Of a stretch of 64,000 nucleotides of DNA, positions 1 through 10,057 are shown in pieces. The position numbers and the translations under genes were made by a program. Origin of the DNA: Leptolyngbyaceae cyanobacterium C42_A2020_001 (GTDB lineage: Bacteria; Cyanobacteriota; Cyanobacteriia; Leptolyngbyales; Leptolyngbyaceae); NCBI GenBank assembly GCA_015272515.1, contig JACYLN010000036.1:1-64000 (forward strand), given 5' to 3'. Each line of letters starts with the position of its first letter. Position 1 is the stretch's first letter. The notes beneath the pieces are model-generated. The model worked only from the letters and a program-made list of their open reading frames with translations, searched no databases and was not told where the DNA came from.

Positions 1-19
1 CTTGCTCTTTTTTGATTCT

Positions 20-48
20 GATACCCCGTCCGCTTGCGGCGGGGTAGT
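20..48. terminator. GC-rich hairpin, probable terminator of an upstream gene
   Basis: TACCCCG and CGGGGTA flank an inner CCGC/GCGG pairing with a very short loop, followed by a moderately T-rich stretch. It probably ends a gene lying left of the window, which cannot be seen. Confidence 0.5.
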
Positions 49-330
49 TCATTGAATTTTTAAATTTGCATTCACTCTCCTGCTGTTAAGCCTGCTTTAC
101 ATTTTTGGTGCCCAATGAGCGATATTCTGAGGAATACGAAACGTGTGATCGGGTGAACAATGCTGTGACCAATAGCGAACATGGGATTCAGGCAGGAAAA
201 TTTGAGTGGTTTTACCGGCAAGCAAAGCCTGTGGGGGAGCCGCGAGCAGTGGTGGTGTTGCTGCATGGGCTGGTATGTCAGAGCTATGGCTGGCGGAATG
301 TGTTGCCGGCGCTGGCGCAACATGGTTTCT

Positions 331-339
331 GGGCGATCG
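331..339. repeat. target site duplication, left copy
   Basis: GGGCGATCG lies directly left of the element and is repeated exactly at 1182-1190. Nine bases is a normal duplication length for the IS1 family. The restored site contains the HIP1 octamer GCGATCGC. Confidence 0.9.
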
Positions 340-361
340 GGTAATGGACTAGACCTGTGGA
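340..361 (+). repeat. IS left terminal inverted repeat
   Basis: This 22-bp end pairs with 1160-1181, with a single mismatch at position 5. Confidence 0.92.
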
Positions 362-403
362 AGTGAGAGAAACTAAAAAGGTCGTTTGCCTAAAGTTTCT
401 GCC

Positions 404-691
404 ATGGTACTTGAACCAGTTCTTTGCCCAAGTTGTGGAAGTAGCGATGTCGTCAAGCATGGACAATCGAGTGAGGGAAAGCAACGCTACAAATGTCGCA
501 ATTCCGAGTGCTCTCGGTGCACGTTTATTCGAACCTATGCCTATCGAGGGTATCTGCCTGAAGTGAAGCAACAGATTGTGGACATGGCAATTAACGGCAG
601 TGGCACTCGTGACACAGCACGAGTCCTCACAATTAGTCGCACTACAGTGACGGAGACATTAAAAAAAAGATCGACACCTGAAAGCAGTTAA
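404..691 (+). CDS. insA: IS1-family InsA-like DNA-binding protein
   Basis: This is the upstream transposition ORF of the IS. It has a CPSC then YKC...C zinc-ribbon-like pattern near the N terminus, followed by a helix-turn-helix-like segment (TRDTARVLTISRTTV). In IS1 this part binds the terminal repeats and represses transposition, and when fused to the downstream frame it gives the active transposase. ATG 404 is preferred over the upstream in-frame TTG 386 because homologues begin at MVLEPV-like sequences. The frame ends shortly after the A8 run at 661-668. Confidence 0.85.
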   Translation: MVLEPVLCPSCGSSDVVKHGQSSEGKQRYKCRNSECSRCTFIRTYAYRGYLPEVKQQIVDMAINGSGTRDTARVLTISRTTVTETLKKRSTPESS

Positions 692-716
692 CCAGAAGCG
701 ACTGGCAGAACTTGAG

Positions 717-1154
717 GTGACTCAAACCATCGTTTGCCTGTGCCAATGGCAGGATTTAGAAGCTGAGGCAGACGAAATGTGGAGTTTTGTAGGTTCCAAA
801 CAACAGCAACGGTGGTTGTGGCACGCGGTTGACCATGCTACAGGCGAAGTGTTAGCGTATGTGCTTTCTCACCACCAAGATAGTGCATTTCTCCAACTCA
901 AAGCGTTGTTAGAACCCTTTGGCATCATGCAGTTCTACACCGATGGTTGGGGAGCTTATGACCGGCATATCGATCCAGCTTTTCACACGGTTGGTAAACG
1001 TTATACTCAGACGATTGAGCGCAAGCATTTAACCTTACGCACTCGAATTAAACGTTTAGCTCGCAAAACGATTTGTTTTTCTAAATCGATCTGGTTGCAT
1101 GACGTTGTCATTGGTTTGTTTATCAACCGCTACGAGTTTGGTTTAGAGGTCTAA
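717..1154 (+). CDS. insB: IS1-family InsB-like DDE transposase ORF
   Basis: The catalytic half of the transposase. Acidic residues sit in DEMWSFV, YTDGWGAY and the ERKHLTLR segment, matching the IS1 DDE pattern, with a conserved RTRIKRLARKT stretch after the Glu. GTG 717 is only a nominal start: the open frame extends left to 663, just after the A8 run, and reads on naturally from InsA if one A is skipped. From the insA frame a +1 (or -2) shift is needed, not the -1 shift of classical IS1. Transcript slippage on A8, or a one-base insertion that inactivated the element, would both explain this. Confidence 0.85.
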   Translation: MTQTIVCLCQWQDLEAEADEMWSFVGSKQQQRWLWHAVDHATGEVLAYVLSHHQDSAFLQLKALLEPFGIMQFYTDGWGAYDRHIDPAFHTVGKRYTQTIERKHLTLRTRIKRLARKTICFSKSIWLHDVVIGLFINRYEFGLEV

Positions 1155-1159
1155 CTAGA

Positions 1160-1181
1160 TCCACAGGTCTAGTCCACTACC
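1160..1181 (-). repeat. IS right terminal inverted repeat
   Basis: Reverse complement of the left end, 21 of 22 bases identical. It ends exactly where the right target duplication begins. Confidence 0.92.
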
Positions 1182-1190
1182 GGGCGATCG
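1182..1190. repeat. target site duplication, right copy
   Basis: GGGCGATCG, identical to 331-339. Confidence 0.9.
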
Positions 1191-1871
1191 CTCCCGATTG
1201 GCTGGGCTCTGGCTTTTCCGAACGACCTGATCGGCGCGATTTTCCTTACACCCCAGAAGCTTACATCACTGCACTCAATGATTTTTTGCAAGCGCTAGAG
1301 CTTGATCACTACTCTCTCGTAGTTCAGGGCTTTTTGGGTACGGTGGGGCTGCAATATGCCCTGCGCCATCCAGAACGCATCGAACGATTGGCGATTTTCA
1401 ATGCTCCCATTACCTCCGCTGCCAAGTTGCCGTGGAAAATGCAGCAGTTGGGCATTCCCCTGGTTGGCGAGATGATTACCCAAGATCCGCTCCTGGTTGA
1501 TCGCACACTGGAAGGCGGAGGTGGTTACCGCGTGGAAGATGCCGACCTGGATGTGTATCGTCGCCCCTTTTTGCAAACCTCCGATTCTGGGCGGGCACTT
1601 TTTGCTACCGTGCAAAATCTTCAGCTCAAGCAAATCACGGCTGAAATTGAAGCCGGATTCCGGGATTGGAAAAAGCCTGTGCTGGTTGCGTGGGGCGATC
1701 GCGACCCCTGGTTACCGATGGCGATCGCCGAATCCTTCACCCAATTGGTTCCTGATGCGGAATTGGTGAAACTGGAAGAAGTGGGACATTACCCGCAGGA
1801 AGACTGGCACGAAAAAGTGAACGATGCCCTGCTCTCCTTTCTGCGTCGCCAACTGTAAGCAGCGGTTGGAA

Positions 1872-4800
1872 TCAGCCAAATAGAAGTGTCATCCACTGCT
1901 GAATCTGCTGCTGCCACGTCCATTCACGGAGAAAATCGGCAGCTACCATGCCGCGATTGCGAGCCTCCTGTCGATGAGTGTAAATGTACTCCAACGTTTC
2001 CACCAGTTCTTCCACATCCGATTCGCCCCAGCCTTCAGTGCCCATTGCCGCAGTCGCTTTAACCGGACGCTGAGCATGGAGCGGAAAACCCAGGTTGTGA
2101 CGAATCAAATCCTGATTTGCCGTATTGTTTGACAACACTGTGGGAATGCCACAAGCCAGACTCGCCGCGATCGCCTGATTGAGTCCTGCTTCACACCGGC
2201 TGGGAAACACCGCTACATCTGCCTCTCGCAACACCTGCCCCAACAACGGATAAGCGATCGCCTCTATCCGCAAAACTGCATCTGGTGACAACTCTGGCAA
2301 CGGTTCAGAACCTGCCCCTGCCAGCAATAGCAACGCATCGGGATGACGAGCCTGGAAGGCTGTGAATGCTGCCAGCAAACTATCGTGTCCTTTGACATGA
2401 CTAATCGCGTTTGAGAAGACGACAAAGCGATCGCCCCAAATGCCTGTCTTCGCACCTGGATAAAACAACGTTGGATCAATGCCCTGCAACGGAATTTGCA
2501 CAGGATTCAGCCCATAGCTTCGCAACACATCCGCACTCCAGCGAGACCCTGTTGCGATCGCCCGAAACTGTTTTGCCCGTTCAATCGCTTCCGCATCCAG
2601 CGTTGTATTTTCCAATGTCACCAGCCCCACTACCTTTTCAGGATTGGGCGACGATAGCGTAACGGGATGCAGGCGATCGTCCAGGATAGTCAGTCCAATT
2701 TCGTCTGTGAGAGAGCCTACCCTTCTTATCTGCTGCAACCGCGATCGCTGCAACGGATTAGCATGGGAATTCTCAGATAACGCTTGCAGCAGAACTGGCT
2801 CAAACCGTTGACTTTGCAGCAACCCTAGCGCCAACTGCGTGCCCACAATGCCCCAATCTGTGAAGTCATCCAGTTGCCAGGTGAGGGTGAGGGATGGGGA
2901 AGTGGGGAGAGGGGGTAGGGAAGATAGGGAGGTAGAAGAGTGAATGGGTGAATGGGTAGAGGGGAGAGGTGGAGGGGTGGAGGGGTGGAGGGGTGAAGGG
3001 GTGAATGGAATCTCCCTCACTCCCCCACTCATCCACTCCCCAACTTCCTCATCTCCTGCCTCCTGCTTTCTTGCCCTAACTTCCTCCCTCAATGTTTCTG
3101 CAACTCGTTCAAACACGCCTGCCCAATCACCGGGGCTAGTTTGACGAAATAACCGCATGGTGGGATACCAGGGGGTATCGTCCCGATCCGCAATCCAGCG
3201 CCAATCAGCCGCGAACATGAGCAGCAACCACACAGGTTTACCCAATGCTCCCGCTAAATGGGCGACGGCAGTATCGACGGTGATGACGAGATCAAGCTGG
3301 GATATGGCGATCGCAGTATCCACAAACGACTGGAGGCGATCGCTCAAATCCTGCACGGGCAAATCTGGATGCGCCTGCAATTGTTTCTCAGCCTCGCCCT
3401 TTTGCAAGCTGTAGAACTCCACATTGGCAACTTCCAGCACTGGACGAAATTGCTCTAATTTACAAGACCGGAAGCGATCGTTGCGATGCCCCGGATTGCC
3501 CGCCCAGACGATACCGACCTTTAGAGGATTGGCGATGGATGATGGGTGATGGGGAGTGGGGAATGGGGAGGGAGAAGAGTGGATGGGTGGATGGGTTTCA
3601 GCGTGAGCAGTTTCGTCGAGAGTCACCGTCGAGACGCTCAGCCGAACGGTGGATGGAATCTCACTTACTCGGCCACTCATCCACTCCCTAACTCCTTCAG
3701 CTCCTGACTCCTGACTCTTCTCCACCAAAATATACGGAATATCAGCCGGAACCGTTTCAACGGTGGTGCCAAAGATGCGGGGCAGACTCATCAATGGCGC
3801 GTGCACATCGAAGTCGGGCAGGGATGAATCTTGAGCAACCAGTTGATCGATCGCAGGCATCAGCGACAACAAGGGGAGCAATGCTGCTTGACATTCCACA
3901 ATCACACGACCACCTTTAGCTTTGACGAATGGCACGTAGCGAATGAATTGCAACGTGTCGCCCATACCCTGCTCGGCGTAGAGCAAAATGGTTTTTCCAG
4001 TTAAGTCAGAGCCATCCCAGGCGGGTTGAGTCAAGGGACGAGGTGCCCAGCCGGGCTGTTGCCAACGCCATTCAATCTCCTGGAATCCTTTAGGAAACTC
4101 GCCTGTAAGCAATAGGGCGTGTCCCAGGTTTTTGTGCGCCAGTGCCATATCTGGCTTGAGGGCGATCGCTTGCTGATAACTGGCGATCGCGGCTTCGATG
4201 TGTCCTGCCCGTCGCAGTGCGTATCCCAGATTATAGTGACCATCGGCAAAATCAGGTTTGAGCGCAACCACCCGCTCAGCATGAGTCACGGCTTCAAACG
4301 GGCGATCCATTTCTAACAGTGCCGTGCTCAGGTTTTGATGCACATCGGGATGATTGGGTTCCAGAGCGATCGCCCGTTGGTAGCTGGCGATCGCCTCCTC
4401 AAACTTGCCCTGTTCTTGCAAAGCACTGCCCAAGTTTTTCCAGCCCTCGGCAAACTGGGGTTGCAATTCCACCAATCGCTGAATGTGCCGTATTGCCTCT
4501 TCAAATCGCTTCATCTGACACAAAATCACACCCAAAATGTGCAGTGCATCCGCATCATCTGGTTGTTGCTCTAACACCTGCCGCAATCGGTTTTCTGCCT
4601 CTCCTAGATTGCCGCTCTGATAGATCTGGAGAGCCGCGTTCAGGAGTTGAGCGCGATCGGTGAAAGTGGGAATGGAGGATGGGGATGATGAGGGAGGTGA
4701 GAATGATGTGGAGGTAGAAGAGTGAATGGGTGGATGGTGCGATGGAATGGCACTCACTCGCCCACTCATCCACTCCCTAACTCCCTTACCTTCTGCCTCC

Positions 4801-7800
4801 TGCCTGCCAATTTTCTCTCTCACTTCGTGCAATACGCTCTCCCAATCGCCAGCAGTGGGTTGGCGGAAAATCTGAAGGGTGGGATACCAGGGGCTATCGT
4901 CTCGGTGTAGCATCCAGCGCCAGTCGGGAGCGAAGGGCAGCAAGAGCCAGGTCGGTTTACCGAGGGCACCTGCGAGATGGGTGACTGCCGTATCGATGCT
5001 GATAACCAGATCAAGCTGCTGAATCAAGGCAGCAGTATCGACAAAATCGGGCATCAAACTCCGCAGATCGTGAATCTGTGGATAGGCTGCTAACAGCGAC
5101 TGGTCGGTGGGTTGAAGATCTTTCTGTAGGCTATAAAACGTGGTGTTGGGTAAGTTTACAAGGGGTAATAAAAGGTCTAAAGGAACGGCACGAGTGCGGT
5201 TGTAAGGGTTTTCGGGGTTTCCTGACCAAACAATCCCAACCTTCAAATTTGAGGGTGAGTTACTTGCTGGTAAGCAAACACTGGAGCGCGGCGGGTGAAT
5301 GTAGGGAACTGTTGCAGGAACCGTTTCAGCCGAGGTGCCAAAGATATAGGGGAGGCTGAGCAGCGGTGCTTGAATGTGGTAGCCGGGGGGAGAGCTGCCG
5401 TAGGGCACAAGCCGTTCCACACCAGGAAGGTTGCTGAATAGGTTCATCAGGGGGGGGTGACACTCCAGAATCACTCGTCCACCCTGCTGTACGACGAGTG
5501 GCACATAGCGCACGAACTGGATGATGTCGCCCATGCCCTGTTCGGCGTGGAGGTAAATTAGTTGTCCGTTCAGGGGCGCGCCATCCCAGCGAGGACCGGG
5601 GAAGTCGCGGAGAGATTTGAAACTGGGAAGATTAACATGCCGTCGCCACTCGTATTCTTCAAACCCGCGCTGAAGATCACCACCCAGTAATAGGGTCAGG
5701 GCTTTGTTCCAGTGGGCTTCGGCAAAGTTGGGGTCGATCGCGGTTGCCTGGTCGTAGTACTGCACAGCGGTTTGCAAGTCGCCCTCATCTCGAAAGATGT
5801 TGCCCCAGTTGTTGTATGCCTTGGCATAGTCGGGTTTGAGCGCGATCGCCTGCTGGTAATATTTCGCGGCTTCGGCAAAGTTGCCCAGTTCTTTGAAGGC
5901 ATTGCCCAAATGGTTTAATGCCTGGGGAAAATTGGGTTTGCGTTCTACTGCCTGTCGATATGCCTCTGCCGCACTGGCAAAATCACCCTTCGCATAGTGC
6001 GCCAAGCCTAAATTATTGTAGGCATCGGGATAGTCGGGGCGGGCTGCGATCGCTTGCTGATAGTGATAAATCGCCTCATCCAGCCGCGATCGCTCCCGCA
6101 GCAGGTTGGCGTAATTATTGTGAGCATCGGGATTATCGGGCTTGAGTGCCAGTGCTTTCTGGTAATAGGGCATGGCTTCATCCAGTTTGCCCTGCTCATG
6201 CAACGCCACTGCCAGGTTGTTGTACGTATCCAGATGATTGTCGTCTGCCTTGAGTGCGTTCTGGTAATGGGCGATCGCCTCATCCAGCTTGCGATCGTGG
6301 TGTGCCATCAAGCCCAGCAAATGCCAGCCATCCGCCGAGTCAGGACTTTGCTGCAAAAACGCTTCACATCCTCGTCGCGCTTCCTCAATTTGTCCTGCCT
6401 GATGCAGTTTGACCACCGCTCGCAGTTCTGTGGGCAGGGTGGTTTTGGGGGGAGAAGATGGGGTGGATGAGGAGGGTGAGGAAGAGGGGGCAGGTGGAGG
6501 AGATGAGGAAGATTTAGAAGAAACCCCTACTTTCTCTCCCTTACCTTCCCAACCTTCCCTATCTCCCTTATCTCGCCGACCCTTCTTCTTCTTCCCTGCC
6601 TGCCTTCTGCCTCCTGCCTTCTGCCTTCTGACTCCTGCCTCCTGACTTTCAACTCCCACCTTTTTCTCTAGCGCTTGCCGTACTTCTGCCAGCACAGGTT
6701 CCCAGTCTCCATAGGTGGATTGCCGAAACAACCGCATGGTGGGATACCAGGGGCTATCACTGCGATCGACCATCCAGCGCCAGTCGGGAGCGAGGGGCAG
6801 CAAGAGCCAGGTGGGTTTGCCGAGAGCACCTGCCAGATGGGTGACTGCCGTGTCGATGCTGATGATTAGGTCAAGTTGGTTGATGATGGCGGCGGTGTCG
6901 GTGAAGTCGTTGAGCTGCGATCGCAAATCCTGAACTTCTGGATGCGCCTGCAACAGCTCTATATCTTCTGGTTTGGGTTCTTTCTGCAAGCTGTAAAGCA
7001 TCACACCGGGAATGGTTGCCAGGGGCAGAAGTTCCGCTAACGGCACTGCACGAGTGCGGTTATAGGGATTTTGCGGATTGCCATCCCAGACAACACCGAT
7101 TTTGAACTGAAGGGTTGGGGAATGGGGGATAGGAGATGGGGCAGGTGAGGAAGAGAGGGAAGGAGGGGTAGGAGAGTAATGGGGTAACAGTATTCTGTTG
7201 GTTGCTACTCCCTGACTCCTTACCTCCTTACCTCCTCCACCTTCCTCACCTTCTGCCTCCTGCCTCCTGCCTTCCGTCGGCTGACGGCTCGACTGAGCGC
7301 TCGCCGAATGTCGCTCTGGGAAGCCTGATTCCTGACTCCCTTTCAACACCAAATAGGGAACTTTCGCCGGAATCGTTTCCAGCGTCGTCCCCAAAATGTA
7401 GGGCAAACTCATCAATGGCGCGTGGGTATCGAAACTGGGAAGAATGGTTTCGCCCAGTGGAATGAGTTGATCGATGTCGGGTAGGGCTTTGAATAAATTA
7501 ATCAACGGAGCGTGGCATTCGACGATGATGCGCCCGCCTTTGGCTTTTACCAGGGGCACATAGCGGATAAATTGCAAAATATCGCCCATGCCCTGTTCGG
7601 CGTAGAGCAAAATCGTTTTGCCATCGAGGGGGGAGCCATCCCAGCGGGGTTGGGAGTAGGAGCGGGAAGGATTTTGTTCAATAAAACGGCTCCACTGAAA
7701 GCGCCATTCGTACCCTTCAAAACCTTGCTTCAAGTTGCCGAGGAGTAGGTGATTTAAAGCGGTGTTCCAGTGGGCTTCGACGAAATCAGGTTTCAGTTCT

Positions 7801-9215
7801 AGTGCCCGATTATAAGCTGCAAAGGCTTCCTGCACTTGTCCAGCGTTGCGGCGGGCAATTCCCAGGTTGTTGTAGACTCCGGCAAAGTCGGGCTGGGCAG
7901 CGATCGCTTGCTCGAAATGCTCAAATGCTTCCTCAAATTCACCGATGTATTGCAGCATATTGCCCAGATTGCTGTGAACCTCCGCCATTTCTGGTTTCAG
8001 AGCAACGGCAGCACGATAACAGGCGATCGCTTCATCCACCCGCTTTTGCTCCTGGTAAGCATTGCCCAGGTTGTTATGAATTTCGGCATAACTTGGACCT
8101 AAAGAAACGGCTTGTTCTAAATAAGAGACAGCCGCTTCCAGCTTGTGCTGATCCTTAAGGACGGCTCCCAAATTGCTCAGGGCTTCCACGAAATTAGGAC
8201 GTAGTTCCAGTGCTTTTTCGTATTGGGTAACGGCTTCATCCAGCTTGCCCTGCCGCTGGAGCGCATTTCCCAAATTGTTCAGGGCTTCGGGATAGTTGGG
8301 GCGTTGTGCAATTGCCTGCCGATAGGAGGCGATCGCTTCATCCACCCGATCTAGTTCCAGCAAGAGATTGCCCAAATTATTGCAAACACCGGGGAAATTG
8401 GGTTGGAGGGTCAGCGCTTGCTGAAAAGCGGCGATCGCTTCCTCGATCTTGCCCTGGTGTTGATAGGCTAATCCCAAATTGTTGAACCCTTCTGCGTAGT
8501 TGGGTTTGAGCTGGATTAAGTGTTGGTAACAAGCGATCGCCTCCTCGTCTTTGCCCTGCTGCTGGAGCGTAGAACCGAGGCTAGTGTAGGCATCGGCGTA
8601 GTTGGGCTTGAGTGCGATCGCCTGACGAAAATAATGAACGGCTTCATCTAGCTGATTTTGCTGGCGTAACACAATTCCCAGGTTGTGGTGGGCTTCGGCA
8701 TAGTTGGGTTTCAGCCGAATTGCTTCGCGATAGCAGGCGATCGCCGCGTCGAGCTTGTCCTGATCTTTGTAAGCAATACCCAAATTGCTGTGAGCTTCCG
8801 CATACGCCGGATTCAGGCTCAATGCCTGCTGATATGCCGCGATCGCCTCCTCCAGCTTGCCCAATTCTTTCAGTGCATTGCCCAAATTGCTCAGCACTTC
8901 CGGTTGGTTAGGCTTCAGTGCTAATGCCTGCTGGTAATGCTCCACTGCTTCGGCGTGTTTGCCCTGTGCCTTCAACACAATGCCCATACTGTTGTGCGAT
9001 TCGGCTCCCGGTTGCAGGGTTAAGACTCGCTCAAAATAATTCTGGGCTTCCTCAAATCGCTTGTCTTCATACACCAGCGCTCCCAGCAAATTCAAGGCAT
9101 CCACAGAATGGGGTTGCTCCTGGAGCAATAGCTTATACACTTGCTCAGCTTCGGCAACTCGTCCGGCTCGTTGGTGTTGAAGTCCCGTTGAGAGGGTGTT
9201 TGGCTGCGTGTTCAT
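1872..9215 (-). CDS. giant TPR protein with three GT9-like modules and a C-terminal GT4-like domain
   Basis: A protein of 2447 residues, built as repeated modules. Residues ~1-490 are about 14 tetratricopeptide repeats (AxxNLGxxxxxxGxxxEAxxxYxxAxxxxP). Residues ~490-850, ~1180-1470 and ~1710-2040 are three related glycosyltransferase-like domains (each with AEQGMGD, then a late SIDTAVTHLAGALGKP-type motif, VDTAVAHLAG in the third), resembling the GT9/heptosyltransferase fold. Shorter TPR blocks (~930-1180 and ~1520-1710) separate them. Residues ~2110-2447 are a GT4-like domain (HVKGHDSLL, AVFPSRCEAGLNQAIAASLACG). No signal peptide is seen, so it is probably cytosolic and may act on sugar-decorated proteins or polysaccharides, with the TPRs as scaffold. 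Low-complexity linkers at ~623-703, 852-928, 1472-1517, 1830-1893 and 2048-2110 are encoded by repeat DNA. It converges on the split hydrolase with a 13-bp gap. The substrate cannot be inferred. Confidence 0.88.
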   Translation of the reverse strand: MNTQPNTLSTGLQHQRAGRVAEAEQVYKLLLQEQPHSVDALNLLGALVYEDKRFEEAQNYFERVLTLQPGAESHNSMGIVLKAQGKHAEAVEHYQQALALKPNQPEVLSNLGNALKELGKLEEAIAAYQQALSLNPAYAEAHSNLGIAYKDQDKLDAAIACYREAIRLKPNYAEAHHNLGIVLRQQNQLDEAVHYFRQAIALKPNYADAYTSLGSTLQQQGKDEEAIACYQHLIQLKPNYAEGFNNLGLAYQHQGKIEEAIAAFQQALTLQPNFPGVCNNLGNLLLELDRVDEAIASYRQAIAQRPNYPEALNNLGNALQRQGKLDEAVTQYEKALELRPNFVEALSNLGAVLKDQHKLEAAVSYLEQAVSLGPSYAEIHNNLGNAYQEQKRVDEAIACYRAAVALKPEMAEVHSNLGNMLQYIGEFEEAFEHFEQAIAAQPDFAGVYNNLGIARRNAGQVQEAFAAYNRALELKPDFVEAHWNTALNHLLLGNLKQGFEGYEWRFQWSRFIEQNPSRSYSQPRWDGSPLDGKTILLYAEQGMGDILQFIRYVPLVKAKGGRIIVECHAPLINLFKALPDIDQLIPLGETILPSFDTHAPLMSLPYILGTTLETIPAKVPYLVLKGSQESGFPERHSASAQSSRQPTEGRRQEAEGEEGGGGKEVRSQGVATNRILLPHYSPTPPSLSSSPAPSPIPHSPTLQFKIGVVWDGNPQNPYNRTRAVPLAELLPLATIPGVMLYSLQKEPKPEDIELLQAHPEVQDLRSQLNDFTDTAAIINQLDLIISIDTAVTHLAGALGKPTWLLLPLAPDWRWMVDRSDSPWYPTMRLFRQSTYGDWEPVLAEVRQALEKKVGVESQEAGVRRQKAGGRRQAGKKKKGRRDKGDREGWEGKGEKVGVSSKSSSSPPPAPSSSPSSSTPSSPPKTTLPTELRAVVKLHQAGQIEEARRGCEAFLQQSPDSADGWHLLGLMAHHDRKLDEAIAHYQNALKADDNHLDTYNNLAVALHEQGKLDEAMPYYQKALALKPDNPDAHNNYANLLRERSRLDEAIYHYQQAIAARPDYPDAYNNLGLAHYAKGDFASAAEAYRQAVERKPNFPQALNHLGNAFKELGNFAEAAKYYQQAIALKPDYAKAYNNWGNIFRDEGDLQTAVQYYDQATAIDPNFAEAHWNKALTLLLGGDLQRGFEEYEWRRHVNLPSFKSLRDFPGPRWDGAPLNGQLIYLHAEQGMGDIIQFVRYVPLVVQQGGRVILECHPPLMNLFSNLPGVERLVPYGSSPPGYHIQAPLLSLPYIFGTSAETVPATVPYIHPPRSSVCLPASNSPSNLKVGIVWSGNPENPYNRTRAVPLDLLLPLVNLPNTTFYSLQKDLQPTDQSLLAAYPQIHDLRSLMPDFVDTAALIQQLDLVISIDTAVTHLAGALGKPTWLLLPFAPDWRWMLHRDDSPWYPTLQIFRQPTAGDWESVLHEVREKIGRQEAEGKGVREWMSGRVSAIPSHHPPIHSSTSTSFSPPSSSPSSIPTFTDRAQLLNAALQIYQSGNLGEAENRLRQVLEQQPDDADALHILGVILCQMKRFEEAIRHIQRLVELQPQFAEGWKNLGSALQEQGKFEEAIASYQRAIALEPNHPDVHQNLSTALLEMDRPFEAVTHAERVVALKPDFADGHYNLGYALRRAGHIEAAIASYQQAIALKPDMALAHKNLGHALLLTGEFPKGFQEIEWRWQQPGWAPRPLTQPAWDGSDLTGKTILLYAEQGMGDTLQFIRYVPFVKAKGGRVIVECQAALLPLLSLMPAIDQLVAQDSSLPDFDVHAPLMSLPRIFGTTVETVPADIPYILVEKSQESGAEGVREWMSGRVSEIPSTVRLSVSTVTLDETAHAETHPPIHSSPSPFPTPHHPSSIANPLKVGIVWAGNPGHRNDRFRSCKLEQFRPVLEVANVEFYSLQKGEAEKQLQAHPDLPVQDLSDRLQSFVDTAIAISQLDLVITVDTAVAHLAGALGKPVWLLLMFAADWRWIADRDDTPWYPTMRLFRQTSPGDWAGVFERVAETLREEVRARKQEAGDEEVGEWMSGGVREIPFTPSPLHPSTPPPLPSTHSPIHSSTSLSSLPPLPTSPSLTLTWQLDDFTDWGIVGTQLALGLLQSQRFEPVLLQALSENSHANPLQRSRLQQIRRVGSLTDEIGLTILDDRLHPVTLSSPNPEKVVGLVTLENTTLDAEAIERAKQFRAIATGSRWSADVLRSYGLNPVQIPLQGIDPTLFYPGAKTGIWGDRFVVFSNAISHVKGHDSLLAAFTAFQARHPDALLLLAGAGSEPLPELSPDAVLRIEAIAYPLLGQVLREADVAVFPSRCEAGLNQAIAASLACGIPTVLSNNTANQDLIRHNLGFPLHAQRPVKATAAMGTEGWGESDVEELVETLEYIYTHRQEARNRGMVAADFLREWTWQQQIQQWMTLLFG
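2884..3075. repeat. in-frame palindromic repeat, copy C, with an 8-bp tandem array
   Basis: This purine-rich then pyrimidine-rich block encodes the linker before the GT4-like domain. It contains the same outer arms as the repeats at 3571-3695 and 4712-4785 (AGAGTGAATGGGTG and CCCACTCATCCACTCCC), and its loop is expanded by tandem GTGGAGGG units at about 2968-2994. On the coding strand it gives the GEWMSG...HSPIHSS peptide seen in the sister copies. Confidence 0.8.
3571..3695. repeat. in-frame palindromic repeat, copy B, carrying a nested insert
   Basis: It has the same arms as copies A and C and encodes REWMSGRVSEIPS...HPPIHSS in the coding frame. About 54 bp (around 3597-3650) rich in GTCGAG/CTCAGC words sits inside its loop and is bordered by duplicated GGTGGATGG, so a second element probably landed in the first. 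Confidence 0.75.
4712..4785. repeat. in-frame palindromic repeat, copy A (simplest form)
   Basis: About 74 bp with imperfectly complementary ends (AGTGAATGGGTGGATGG and CCCACTCATCCACTC). On the minus strand it encodes REWMSGRVSAIPSHHPPIHSS between GT module 2 and TPR block 3. It serves as reference for the two expanded copies. Confidence 0.8.
6598..6650. repeat. heptameric short tandem repeat within coding sequence
   Basis: About seven units of a 7-bp word (TGCCTTC, TGCCTCC, TGACTCC variants) run through the linker after GT module 1. Three units equal 21 bp, so the array encodes a degenerate seven-residue period rich in R, Q, E, A and G. Such heptameric repeats are common in filamentous cyanobacteria, usually between genes. 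A shorter similar run lies at about 7250-7275. Confidence 0.8.
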
Positions 9216-9401
9216 GGGAGAGGAGTTTGCATGAGTGCTGATTATCTTATCTAACCTCTCTCAGCATTCACCCAGCGCGCAGTTTTCTTAATGTTGAGTT
9301 ACTTTGTTACGAGAAAAGGGAGGGACGCGATCGCGGTAGTGCATGCAGGATTCCGCTTCGTCTCCTCCCAAAATTGTTCTCTTTTCCCTCAAATCAGCGA
9401 T

Positions 9402-9770
9402 CTACCAATCCAGGCTGACACGAGACCCGCAGACATAGCGCAGCATTTCGGTAGCAGCAGGAGAGGTGGCAGCAAAGCGTTGTCTACCCACATACCAGGC
9501 AGATTCACGACAGTTGGTGAATCCTTCAAGCGCCTGTCCATTTAAGTAGTAAGTGAATTGCATTCCATACCGGGTAGAGCGGATAGAGTTTGGATCAAGT
9601 TCCAAGCGATTTCCCTGGTTTGTCCAACCCCAGTAAATCTTGCCGTTGTAAGTAGCTCCACGTTCGACATTCGGCAGACAGGAGTAATAAGTGACTTGCG
9701 GGATCGCGGTAGTTTCCAGCATGAGAAAGGCAATAAACGTTCCAGCCAAAGCAGTAAATGAGTGACGCAT
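9402..9770 (-). CDS. small secreted protein of unknown function
   Basis: 122 residues. The N terminus (MRHSFTALAGTFIAFLMLETTAIPQ) looks like a signal peptide, so the mature chain of about 97 residues is probably periplasmic or extracellular. It contains three Cys (YYSCLP, FTNCRE, RYVCGS) and is rich in Tyr, Trp and Arg, which suggests a small compact fold. A GGAGA stretch a few bases before ATG 9770 supports the start. No family was recognised. It is in the same orientation as the small membrane protein just upstream. Confidence 0.65.
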   Translation of the reverse strand: MRHSFTALAGTFIAFLMLETTAIPQVTYYSCLPNVERGATYNGKIYWGWTNQGNRLELDPNSIRSTRYGMQFTYYLNGQALEGFTNCRESAWYVGRQRFAATSPAATEMLRYVCGSRVSLDW

Positions 9771-9835
9771 AGGGGATCTCCAAACATCGAAGAATTGGCA
9801 TTGGAATTGGTGCCCGCCCCCGTGCTCAACAAAAA

Positions 9836-10057
9836 CTAGTTGAACTGGCTGAAAGTACTCACCGGACGAGCATTTTGGTATTGAAACCGCCGCCGTTCGG
9901 AATCATTGATCAAGCCAACAAACAGCATCATGACGATCGCCACTGCAAAGATGCCCATAAACGCGCTGGTGCATTCACCGTTATCATCATCAACGCCATT
10001 ACGCGTACCAAAAAACACCATGAAAACCTGGTCATCATCTTTAGAACTCTTGAACAT
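9836..10057 (-). CDS. small single-pass membrane protein, unknown
   Basis: 73 residues with an Asp-rich N-terminal part, one hydrophobic segment at about residues 33-49 (MGIFAVAIVMMLFVGLI) and a basic tail (SERRRFQYQ). The charge pattern suggests a single membrane span with the Arg-rich tail in the cytosol. The ribosome binding site is weak and no homologue was recognised, so this is a moderate call. A plus-strand open frame over the same DNA looks like its shadow. Confidence 0.45.
   Translation of the reverse strand: MFKSSKDDDQVFMVFFGTRNGVDDDNGECTSAFMGIFAVAIVMMLFVGLINDSERRRFQYQNARPVSTFSQFN

Follow-up and report, generated by a model that had tools for sequence, protein, structure and literature searches.

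In-frame copies of a dispersed ~80-bp repeat in conserved genes of a Leptolyngbyaceae cyanobacterium

The host gene and its three repeat copies

The stretch of DNA analyzed here (the window) comprises 64,000 nucleotides of contig JACYLN010000036.1 from Leptolyngbyaceae cyanobacterium C42_A2020_001. One gene in it, called as an open reading frame, hosts three copies of a short repeat (Table 1). The host protein contains three modules, each made up of TPR and glycosyltransferase family 9 (GT9, heptosyltransferase-like) regions, and a C-terminal group-1 glycosyltransferase; Pfam searches of its C-terminal 1062 aa identified TPR families, PF01075 and PF13692. Orthologues of 2400 aa and 2341 aa are present in the relatives G002 and G001, respectively, and dN/dS of the gene against G002 is 0.07.

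A first-pass annotation of this DNA had described three insertions of one palindromic repeat in this gene, all in one orientation and one frame, encoding EWMSG...HSS-type peptides and lying only in linkers. The three copies are present, essentially where that annotation had placed them, and share one orientation and the frame EWMSGRVSEIPS...HPPIHSS. Their in-frame translations are KGVREWMSGRVSAIPSHHPPIHSS for copy A, EGVREWMSGRVSEIPST...THPPIHSS for copy B and EEVGEWMSGGVREIPF...THSPIHSS for copy C. The left arm, GAGTGGATGAGTGG, occurs exactly at 3025-3038, 3673-3686 and 4762-4775. With up to three mismatches it has 19 matches in the window, compared with 4.8 expected and a maximum of 11 in 100 shuffles, and the right arm, CCACCCATTCACTCTTC, has 3 matches compared with 0.12 expected. 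The octamer units of the array in copy C follow one another at 8-nt spacing.

Table 1. Positions of the host gene and of repeat-type features within it
Feature	Positions	Strand	Description
Host gene	1872..9215	minus	2447-aa protein, open reading frame call
Copy A	4710..4789	minus	Full-length element with canonical right end CCATTCACTCTTCTACCTCC; peptide KGVREWMSGRVSAIPSHHPPIHSSTSTS; end of module 2
Copy B	3567..3700	minus	Composite with nested hairpin; peptide EGVREWMSGRVSEIPSTVRLSVSTVTLDETAHAETHPPIHSS; between the GT9 halves of module 3
Nested insert in copy B	3594..3647	minus	GTTCGGCTGAGCG...GCTGAAACC; marks the composite subfamily
Copy C	2928..3052	minus	Element expanded by an octamer array (CCACCCCT)n; peptide EEVGEWMSGGVREIPFTPSPLHPSTPPPLPSTHSPIHSSTS; end of module 3
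Other repeat-type insert, module 1	7092..7270	minus	QEAEGEEGGGGKEVRSQGVATNRILLPHYSPTPPS / EAEGEEGGGGKEVRSQGVATN...; relative at the copy-B site of G002 (L277, module 3)

Module 3 was modeled by AlphaFold2 with a mean pLDDT of 81.6 and a pTM of 0.75. In this model, the segments encoded by copy B (residues 321-380), which lies between the two halves of the GT9 fold, and by copy C (residues 543-581) have pLDDT values below 50 and are predicted to be disordered. A different repeat-type insert is found in module 1, and its relative in G002 lies in module 3; this suggests either exchange between modules or the movement of another repeat.

Anatomy and folding of the element

The full-length element is about 80 bp long, with composites reaching 134 bp, and its rough consensus reads GTGAGGGAGTTAGGGAGTGGATGAGTGGGCGAGTGAGTGAAATTCCATCCACCCATC...CCATTCACTCTTCTACCTCC. 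A purine-rich, octamer-periodic left half is followed by a pyrimidine-rich right half, and the centre, GTGAAATTCCATC, is non-periodic and specific. In several unrelated genes the right end lies at a fixed distance of 59 bases from the core. This end is recognizable in only about 15-19 of 84 copies, most copies being without it, and 15 of the 19 copies that keep it carry GTAG on its reverse strand. Neither a target-site duplication nor a sharp left boundary was found, and no duplication was seen in alignments of genes and intergenic regions with G001 and G002, relatives that are distant and have low-complexity flanks at these sites. Several copies, those in L108, L116, L259 and L202 and at window positions 3594-3647, share the internal position of a nested second hairpin (GGCTGAGCG...).

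Of the earlier description as palindromic, the arms stand, matching well beyond shuffled sequence, but the palindrome is imperfect and the hairpin weak. When the 84 copies were folded and compared with shuffles, the mean z was about -0.7 to -0.8, values for single copies spanned 0.15 to -3.3, and only 17-18% fell below -2; a long stable stem-loop with terminal inverted repeats was not found among them. The consensus fold has 7 pairs and little covariation. A stable hairpin was therefore rejected as the defining feature, the signal being weak. Identity with a known RNA family was likewise rejected, as the covariance models of Rfam 15 gave no match at the gathering threshold in window positions 1-10000.

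Genome census and placement

A gap-free 60-column core, taken from an alignment of 20 copies, was used as a sequence-only model for a genome-wide census. The search scored 150 of 1920 candidates, and weak copies may be missed; it gave at least 115 matches at E<=0.1 and 86 at E<=1e-3 with strict filters. Merging 88 of the E<=0.1 matches yielded at least 84 copies, 66 of them intergenic and 18 within called genes. Simple arm searches agree with a dispersed family: the left arm has 66 matches genome-wide (30 for a reversed control), and an extended arm, GTTAGGGAGTGGATGAGTGG, has 54 at up to three mismatches (7 for the reversed pattern). Thus, the genome search proposed with the first-pass annotation does recover copies both between and within genes.

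Genes were called with a home-made dicodon score trained on 154 long open reading frames, by which 84% of the window is coding. Relative to these calls, the copies are strongly depleted in coding DNA (p about 1e-36). Intergenic copies lie near the 3' ends of genes, usually just past a stop codon, and only 9 of the 66 are located between divergent genes. The family nevertheless occupies about 15 working genes, several of them housekeeping genes. Antisense in-gene matches of the simple arm pattern (in L080, L082 and L117, and the second match in L090) were discarded as octamer arrays or partial right arms.

Orientation and frame bias

Among the 18 in-gene copies, 17 are in the sense orientation. 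The lone 'antisense' copy is located 18 nt inside the 5' end of a called gene, an end that is probably miscalled. All 17 sense copies share the frame E-W-x-S-(G/E)-x-(V)-x-E-(I/T)-P. The congener G002 provides a replicate: 5 of its 12 copies are in genes, and all 5 are sense and in the identical frame. The frame and orientation bias that the first-pass annotation had asked to be counted is thus present in two genomes.

Is this bias a property of insertion itself? Tandem intergenic copies were found in the same orientation in 23 cases and in the opposite orientation in 14 (p=0.19), indicating that insertion itself has no strong orientation bias. Stop codons were considered as the sole cause and rejected. 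Among the 66 intergenic copies, open frames were counted as A0 21, A2 18, A1 13, S0 16, S1 4 and S2 4; antisense frames are open at least as often as the sense frame, and together with the near-random tandem orientation this makes stop codons alone insufficient. Since some hosts are paralogous, the 17 in-gene copies represent about 9-10 independent events; with four kinases and three secreted-type proteins each treated as paralogues, the conservative count is 9 host groups. All 9 are sense, which gives p=0.004 against a 1:1 expectation and 3e-5 against the open-frame expectation (sense 0.32). Fisher's test of 17:0 against 23:14 gives p=0.002, or 0.04 when the 9 groups are used. The sense peptides are more hydrophilic (KD -0.8 to -1.0) than the antisense peptides (0 to -0.5). 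The orientation bias would then reflect selection on the encoded peptide, the sense frame being the more hydrophilic one.

Host proteins

Pfam assignments place the element within the MoCF_biosynth domain of MoeA, within the pantoate ligase of PanC-Cmk, within the PLP barrel of LysA, and between the homocysteine and pterin domains of MetH. Further hosts confirmed by Pfam are a PMT_2 mannosyltransferase (GT39-like), a DUF5682 protein and a hybrid histidine kinase. By eye, the element was recognized in the same HATPase loop of four more kinases and near the C-termini of three secreted filamentous-type proteins, and RecJ and MenE were recognized among the hosts in G002. Inserts within single Pfam domains show that the element is not confined to inter-domain linkers. 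The earlier claim of placement only in linkers thus fits the window protein, in which copies B and C are predicted to be disordered, but not the hosts elsewhere, in which the element sits in loops inside single domains.

Between this genome and G002, dN/dS of the hosts is 0.04-0.09 over 334-2121 codons, indicating that the host genes are working and under strong purifying selection. The insert adds a harmless-looking loop to such a protein. Five histidine kinases (L100, L066, L256, L201 and L081) share the position of the element, a HATPase loop that immediately precedes the DTGKG / DTGPG motif. As L081 belongs to a different kinase group, this loop was probably hit more than once.

Orthologues and repeats at the same loops

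The element is absent from the MoeA, MetH, PanC, LysA, GT39 and DUF5682 orthologues of relatives. The reciprocal case is provided by RecJ and MenE, in which the element of G002 is absent from orthologues elsewhere. At every gene site examined, the element is missing from relatives, with the exception of diverged copies A and C in the G002 orthologue of the window gene. The diverged counterpart of copy A in G002 has no equivalent in G001, G026, G005 or ULC077. Neither the G002 nor the G001 orthologue contains copy B, and in G002 the site is occupied by a different repeat peptide. The comparison with orthologues suggested in the first-pass annotation thus shows the same modules without the elements.

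The loop is short and clean in LysA (G001 and G002), PanC (G001) and MoeA (G001). Other repeat-like peptides occupy the same loop in MoeA (G005), PanC (G002 and G005), LysA (G005 and G026), RecJ (this genome) and MenE (all relatives shown). Ten intergenic sites were located in G002, one of them (C74) without a matched right flank, and the element is absent from all of them. Most have another purine-to-pyrimidine repeat in place of a clean empty site, and no sharp empty site or target duplication was found at these ten loci, where other repeats are present or divergence of the flanks is too great. At such sites, turnover of low-complexity DNA in place could therefore look like insertion.

Peptides of other repeats (ERQEAMERQEAEGRGQKGAG..., GGEGGEGDEGSEGGEGG...) were observed in L304 (MoeA, G005), L306 (DUF5682, G001) and L295 (PanC, G005), as if the MoeA, DUF5682 and PanC loops were hot spots, whichever family a repeat came from. 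A third family of repeats (IQNSKFGS...SPEAKIQNSS, DNA like GAATTTTGAATTTTGG..GGTGAGTCAGCGG) lies in frame within L090 (LysA) and L341 (RecJ of this genome), and similar DNA comes after octamer arrays in L082 and L103. On the strength of the MoeA, PanC, LysA, RecJ, MenE, DUF5682 and TPR-GT loops that hold other repeat-like peptides, it may be suggested, at somewhat short of even confidence, that certain surface loops of conserved enzymes in cyanobacteria act as standing harbours, in which successive lineage-specific repeat families invade or replace the occupant, always in a viable frame and orientation. If so, genomic repeats would continually renew protein loops.

Kinship and distribution of the copies

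The MoeA copy, which lies in an unlinked gene, is the nearest relative of copy C (89% over 94 nt) and also of copy A. The closest match to the methionine synthase copy is an intergenic copy. The composite subfamily, defined by the nested hairpin, comprises copy B, one other gene, three intergenic sites and MenE of G002. Its sequence matches the C119, C134 and C16 copies, and the peptide STVRLNPFSD is encoded by the copy at C130:54388 and STVRLN by MenE of G002. Scattered nearest relatives and a composite subfamily form the pattern that copying between unlinked sites gives. Judged by these relationships, the composite subfamily has spread as a unit, with the relatives of copies scattered over unlinked genes.

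Among 58 genomes searched, strict hits number 86 in this genome, 12 in G002, 8 in G020 and 4 in G017, and most genomes have none; the 56 relatives other than G002 have 0-8 each. Within this set, strong copies are restricted to one cyanobacterial genus.

Origin of the in-gene copies

The findings are probably best accounted for by a lineage-specific, non-autonomous dispersed repeat of about 80 bp that copies itself and whose survival within genes is limited by loop, orientation and frame. New copies of such an element would mostly be placed immediately 3' of genes. Those landing in genes would persist only where they fall in a surface loop or linker and are oriented and framed so as to yield a hydrophilic peptide (EGVREWMSGRVSEIPSTHPPIHSST). 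Movement would occur as DNA, through insertion or ectopic conversion and often into earlier repeats, and the inserts would be tolerated rather than useful. The first-pass idea of a cyanobacterial in-frame mobile-type repeat was right in substance, mobility being inferred from comparative data.

Other origins were weighed against this. Copies A and C occupy homologous module ends, and the likeness of the module-1 insert here to the module-3 insert of G002 suggests some inter-module exchange; the trio might thus have arisen when the TPR-GT modules were duplicated or underwent gene conversion with one another, with copies elsewhere incidental. The first-pass annotation had named this outcome, together with an absence of frame bias and a purely intergenic placement of other copies, as what would contradict it. 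What was found is different: orthologues have the same modules without the elements, the MoeA copy is the nearest relative of both C and A, and the element occurs in at least 14 other genes. Module duplication is accordingly considered very improbable. Fusion of neighbouring genes, by which intergenic copies became linkers, would suit the location of intergenic copies just past stop codons and often between same-strand genes, but MoeA, LysA, PanC, DUF5682 and the HATPase proteins are single conserved proteins broken inside one domain, and their orthologues are continuous without the element. Fusion is hardly credible as a general origin, and it was rejected for the single-domain enzymes examined with Pfam and orthologues.

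In-place expansion, in which purine- and pyrimidine-rich tracts grow by slippage and converge without movement, draws on the octamer periodicity, the expanded array of copy C and the other purine-to-pyrimidine repeats at the same sites of G002. It does not readily explain the specific non-periodic centre, the right end fixed relative to the core, a composite subfamily with a nested unique hairpin at several loci, or the restriction of the family to one genus, and we regard it as unlikely. Alternatively, the peptide might benefit its hosts, perhaps as a flexible spacer or a contact site, and owe its spread to selection instead of selfish copying; the single frame and single hydrophilic peptide common to all hosts and the purifying selection on host genes would fit this. 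However, the hosts are unrelated and share no common pathway, most copies are intergenic, many with stops in the peptide frame, orthologues manage without the element, and the inserts are predicted to be disordered, so that this explanation is judged quite unlikely.

Comparison with known repeats

In-frame palindromic repeats have been described from the obligate intracellular bacteria Rickettsia and Wolbachia (PMC2229807, PMC3733652). Rickettsia palindromic elements (RPE) are 105-146 bp long, have terminal inverted repeats and lie in frame in 19 protein genes, and one RPE-bearing product was shown to be translated and active (PMC2229807). Like RPE and the Wolbachia repeats, the cyanobacterial element is dispersed, around 100 bp in size, both intergenic and in frame in conserved genes, with an open frame that is tolerated. 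Unlike them, it resides in a free-living cyanobacterium, consists of a weak octamer-periodic purine-to-pyrimidine half-palindrome of about 80 bp, and has unrelated repeats at the same loops in relatives. The RPE likeness noted in the first-pass annotation thus extends to the mode of action but not to a stable stem-loop with terminal inverted repeats. From this comparison, we class the element as a separate lineage-specific family that is RPE-like in mode of action, and claim neither membership nor common descent.

Enterobacterial RU sequences are also found in frame, as gene fusions (PMC2759123). RU-1/ERIC, RU-2 and RU-3 resemble the present element in being small non-autonomous repeats whose reading frame is fused in genes (PMC2759123). 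RU sequences are MITE-like, and target duplications are listed for RU-1 and RU-2 (PMC2229807), whereas in the cyanobacterial element neither the ends nor any duplications are sharp.

Within cyanobacteria, REPs and G-rich heptamers that are mostly intergenic have been reported (PMC3733652, PMC4692102). The Nostoc repeats (Elhai et al. 2008), as represented in papers that cite that work, and GTAG-REPs (PMC3733652) are similarly small, multi-copy and mostly between or downstream of genes; relative to the Nostoc repeats as so described, the in-frame, single-orientation copies in housekeeping genes are the new part. The G-rich heptamers of Nostoc and Xanthomonas are pure tandem arrays under-represented in coding strands (PMC4692102), whereas the present element is an octamer-periodic composite with a unique centre and is read through in genes. 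The literature that was searched contained no account of a cyanobacterial repeat family read in frame.

A free-living cyanobacterium with such repeats in MoeA, MetH, PanC, LysA and, in a congener, RecJ would show that repeat-driven insertion of peptide loops is a general means by which proteins change, rather than a peculiarity of reduced genomes. The same enzymes with and without the insert exist in one genus, making the proposal directly testable. The findings also call for caution with predicted cyanobacterial proteins, in which long loops rich in proline, serine and glutamate may be repeats that are translated.

Transposases and other mobile elements

No dedicated transposase or parent insertion sequence was found for the element. 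RAYT/IS200 was considered as a candidate mobilizer, and no correlation was found: Y1 transposases number 6 in this genome and 42 in G002, and their counts do not track the copy number of the element. About 40 identical IS200-type transposase copies, a recent burst, were observed in G002 (L339), compared with 4 in this genome. An IS1-like element lies at window positions 340-1181, bounded by 22-bp inverted ends of 95% identity (340-361 and 1160-1181). It contains open reading frames at 386-691 and 717-1154, and a T/A run between them suggests frameshifting. An alpha/beta-hydrolase-like gene, present in pieces at 107-344 and 1286-1858, appears to be interrupted by this element.
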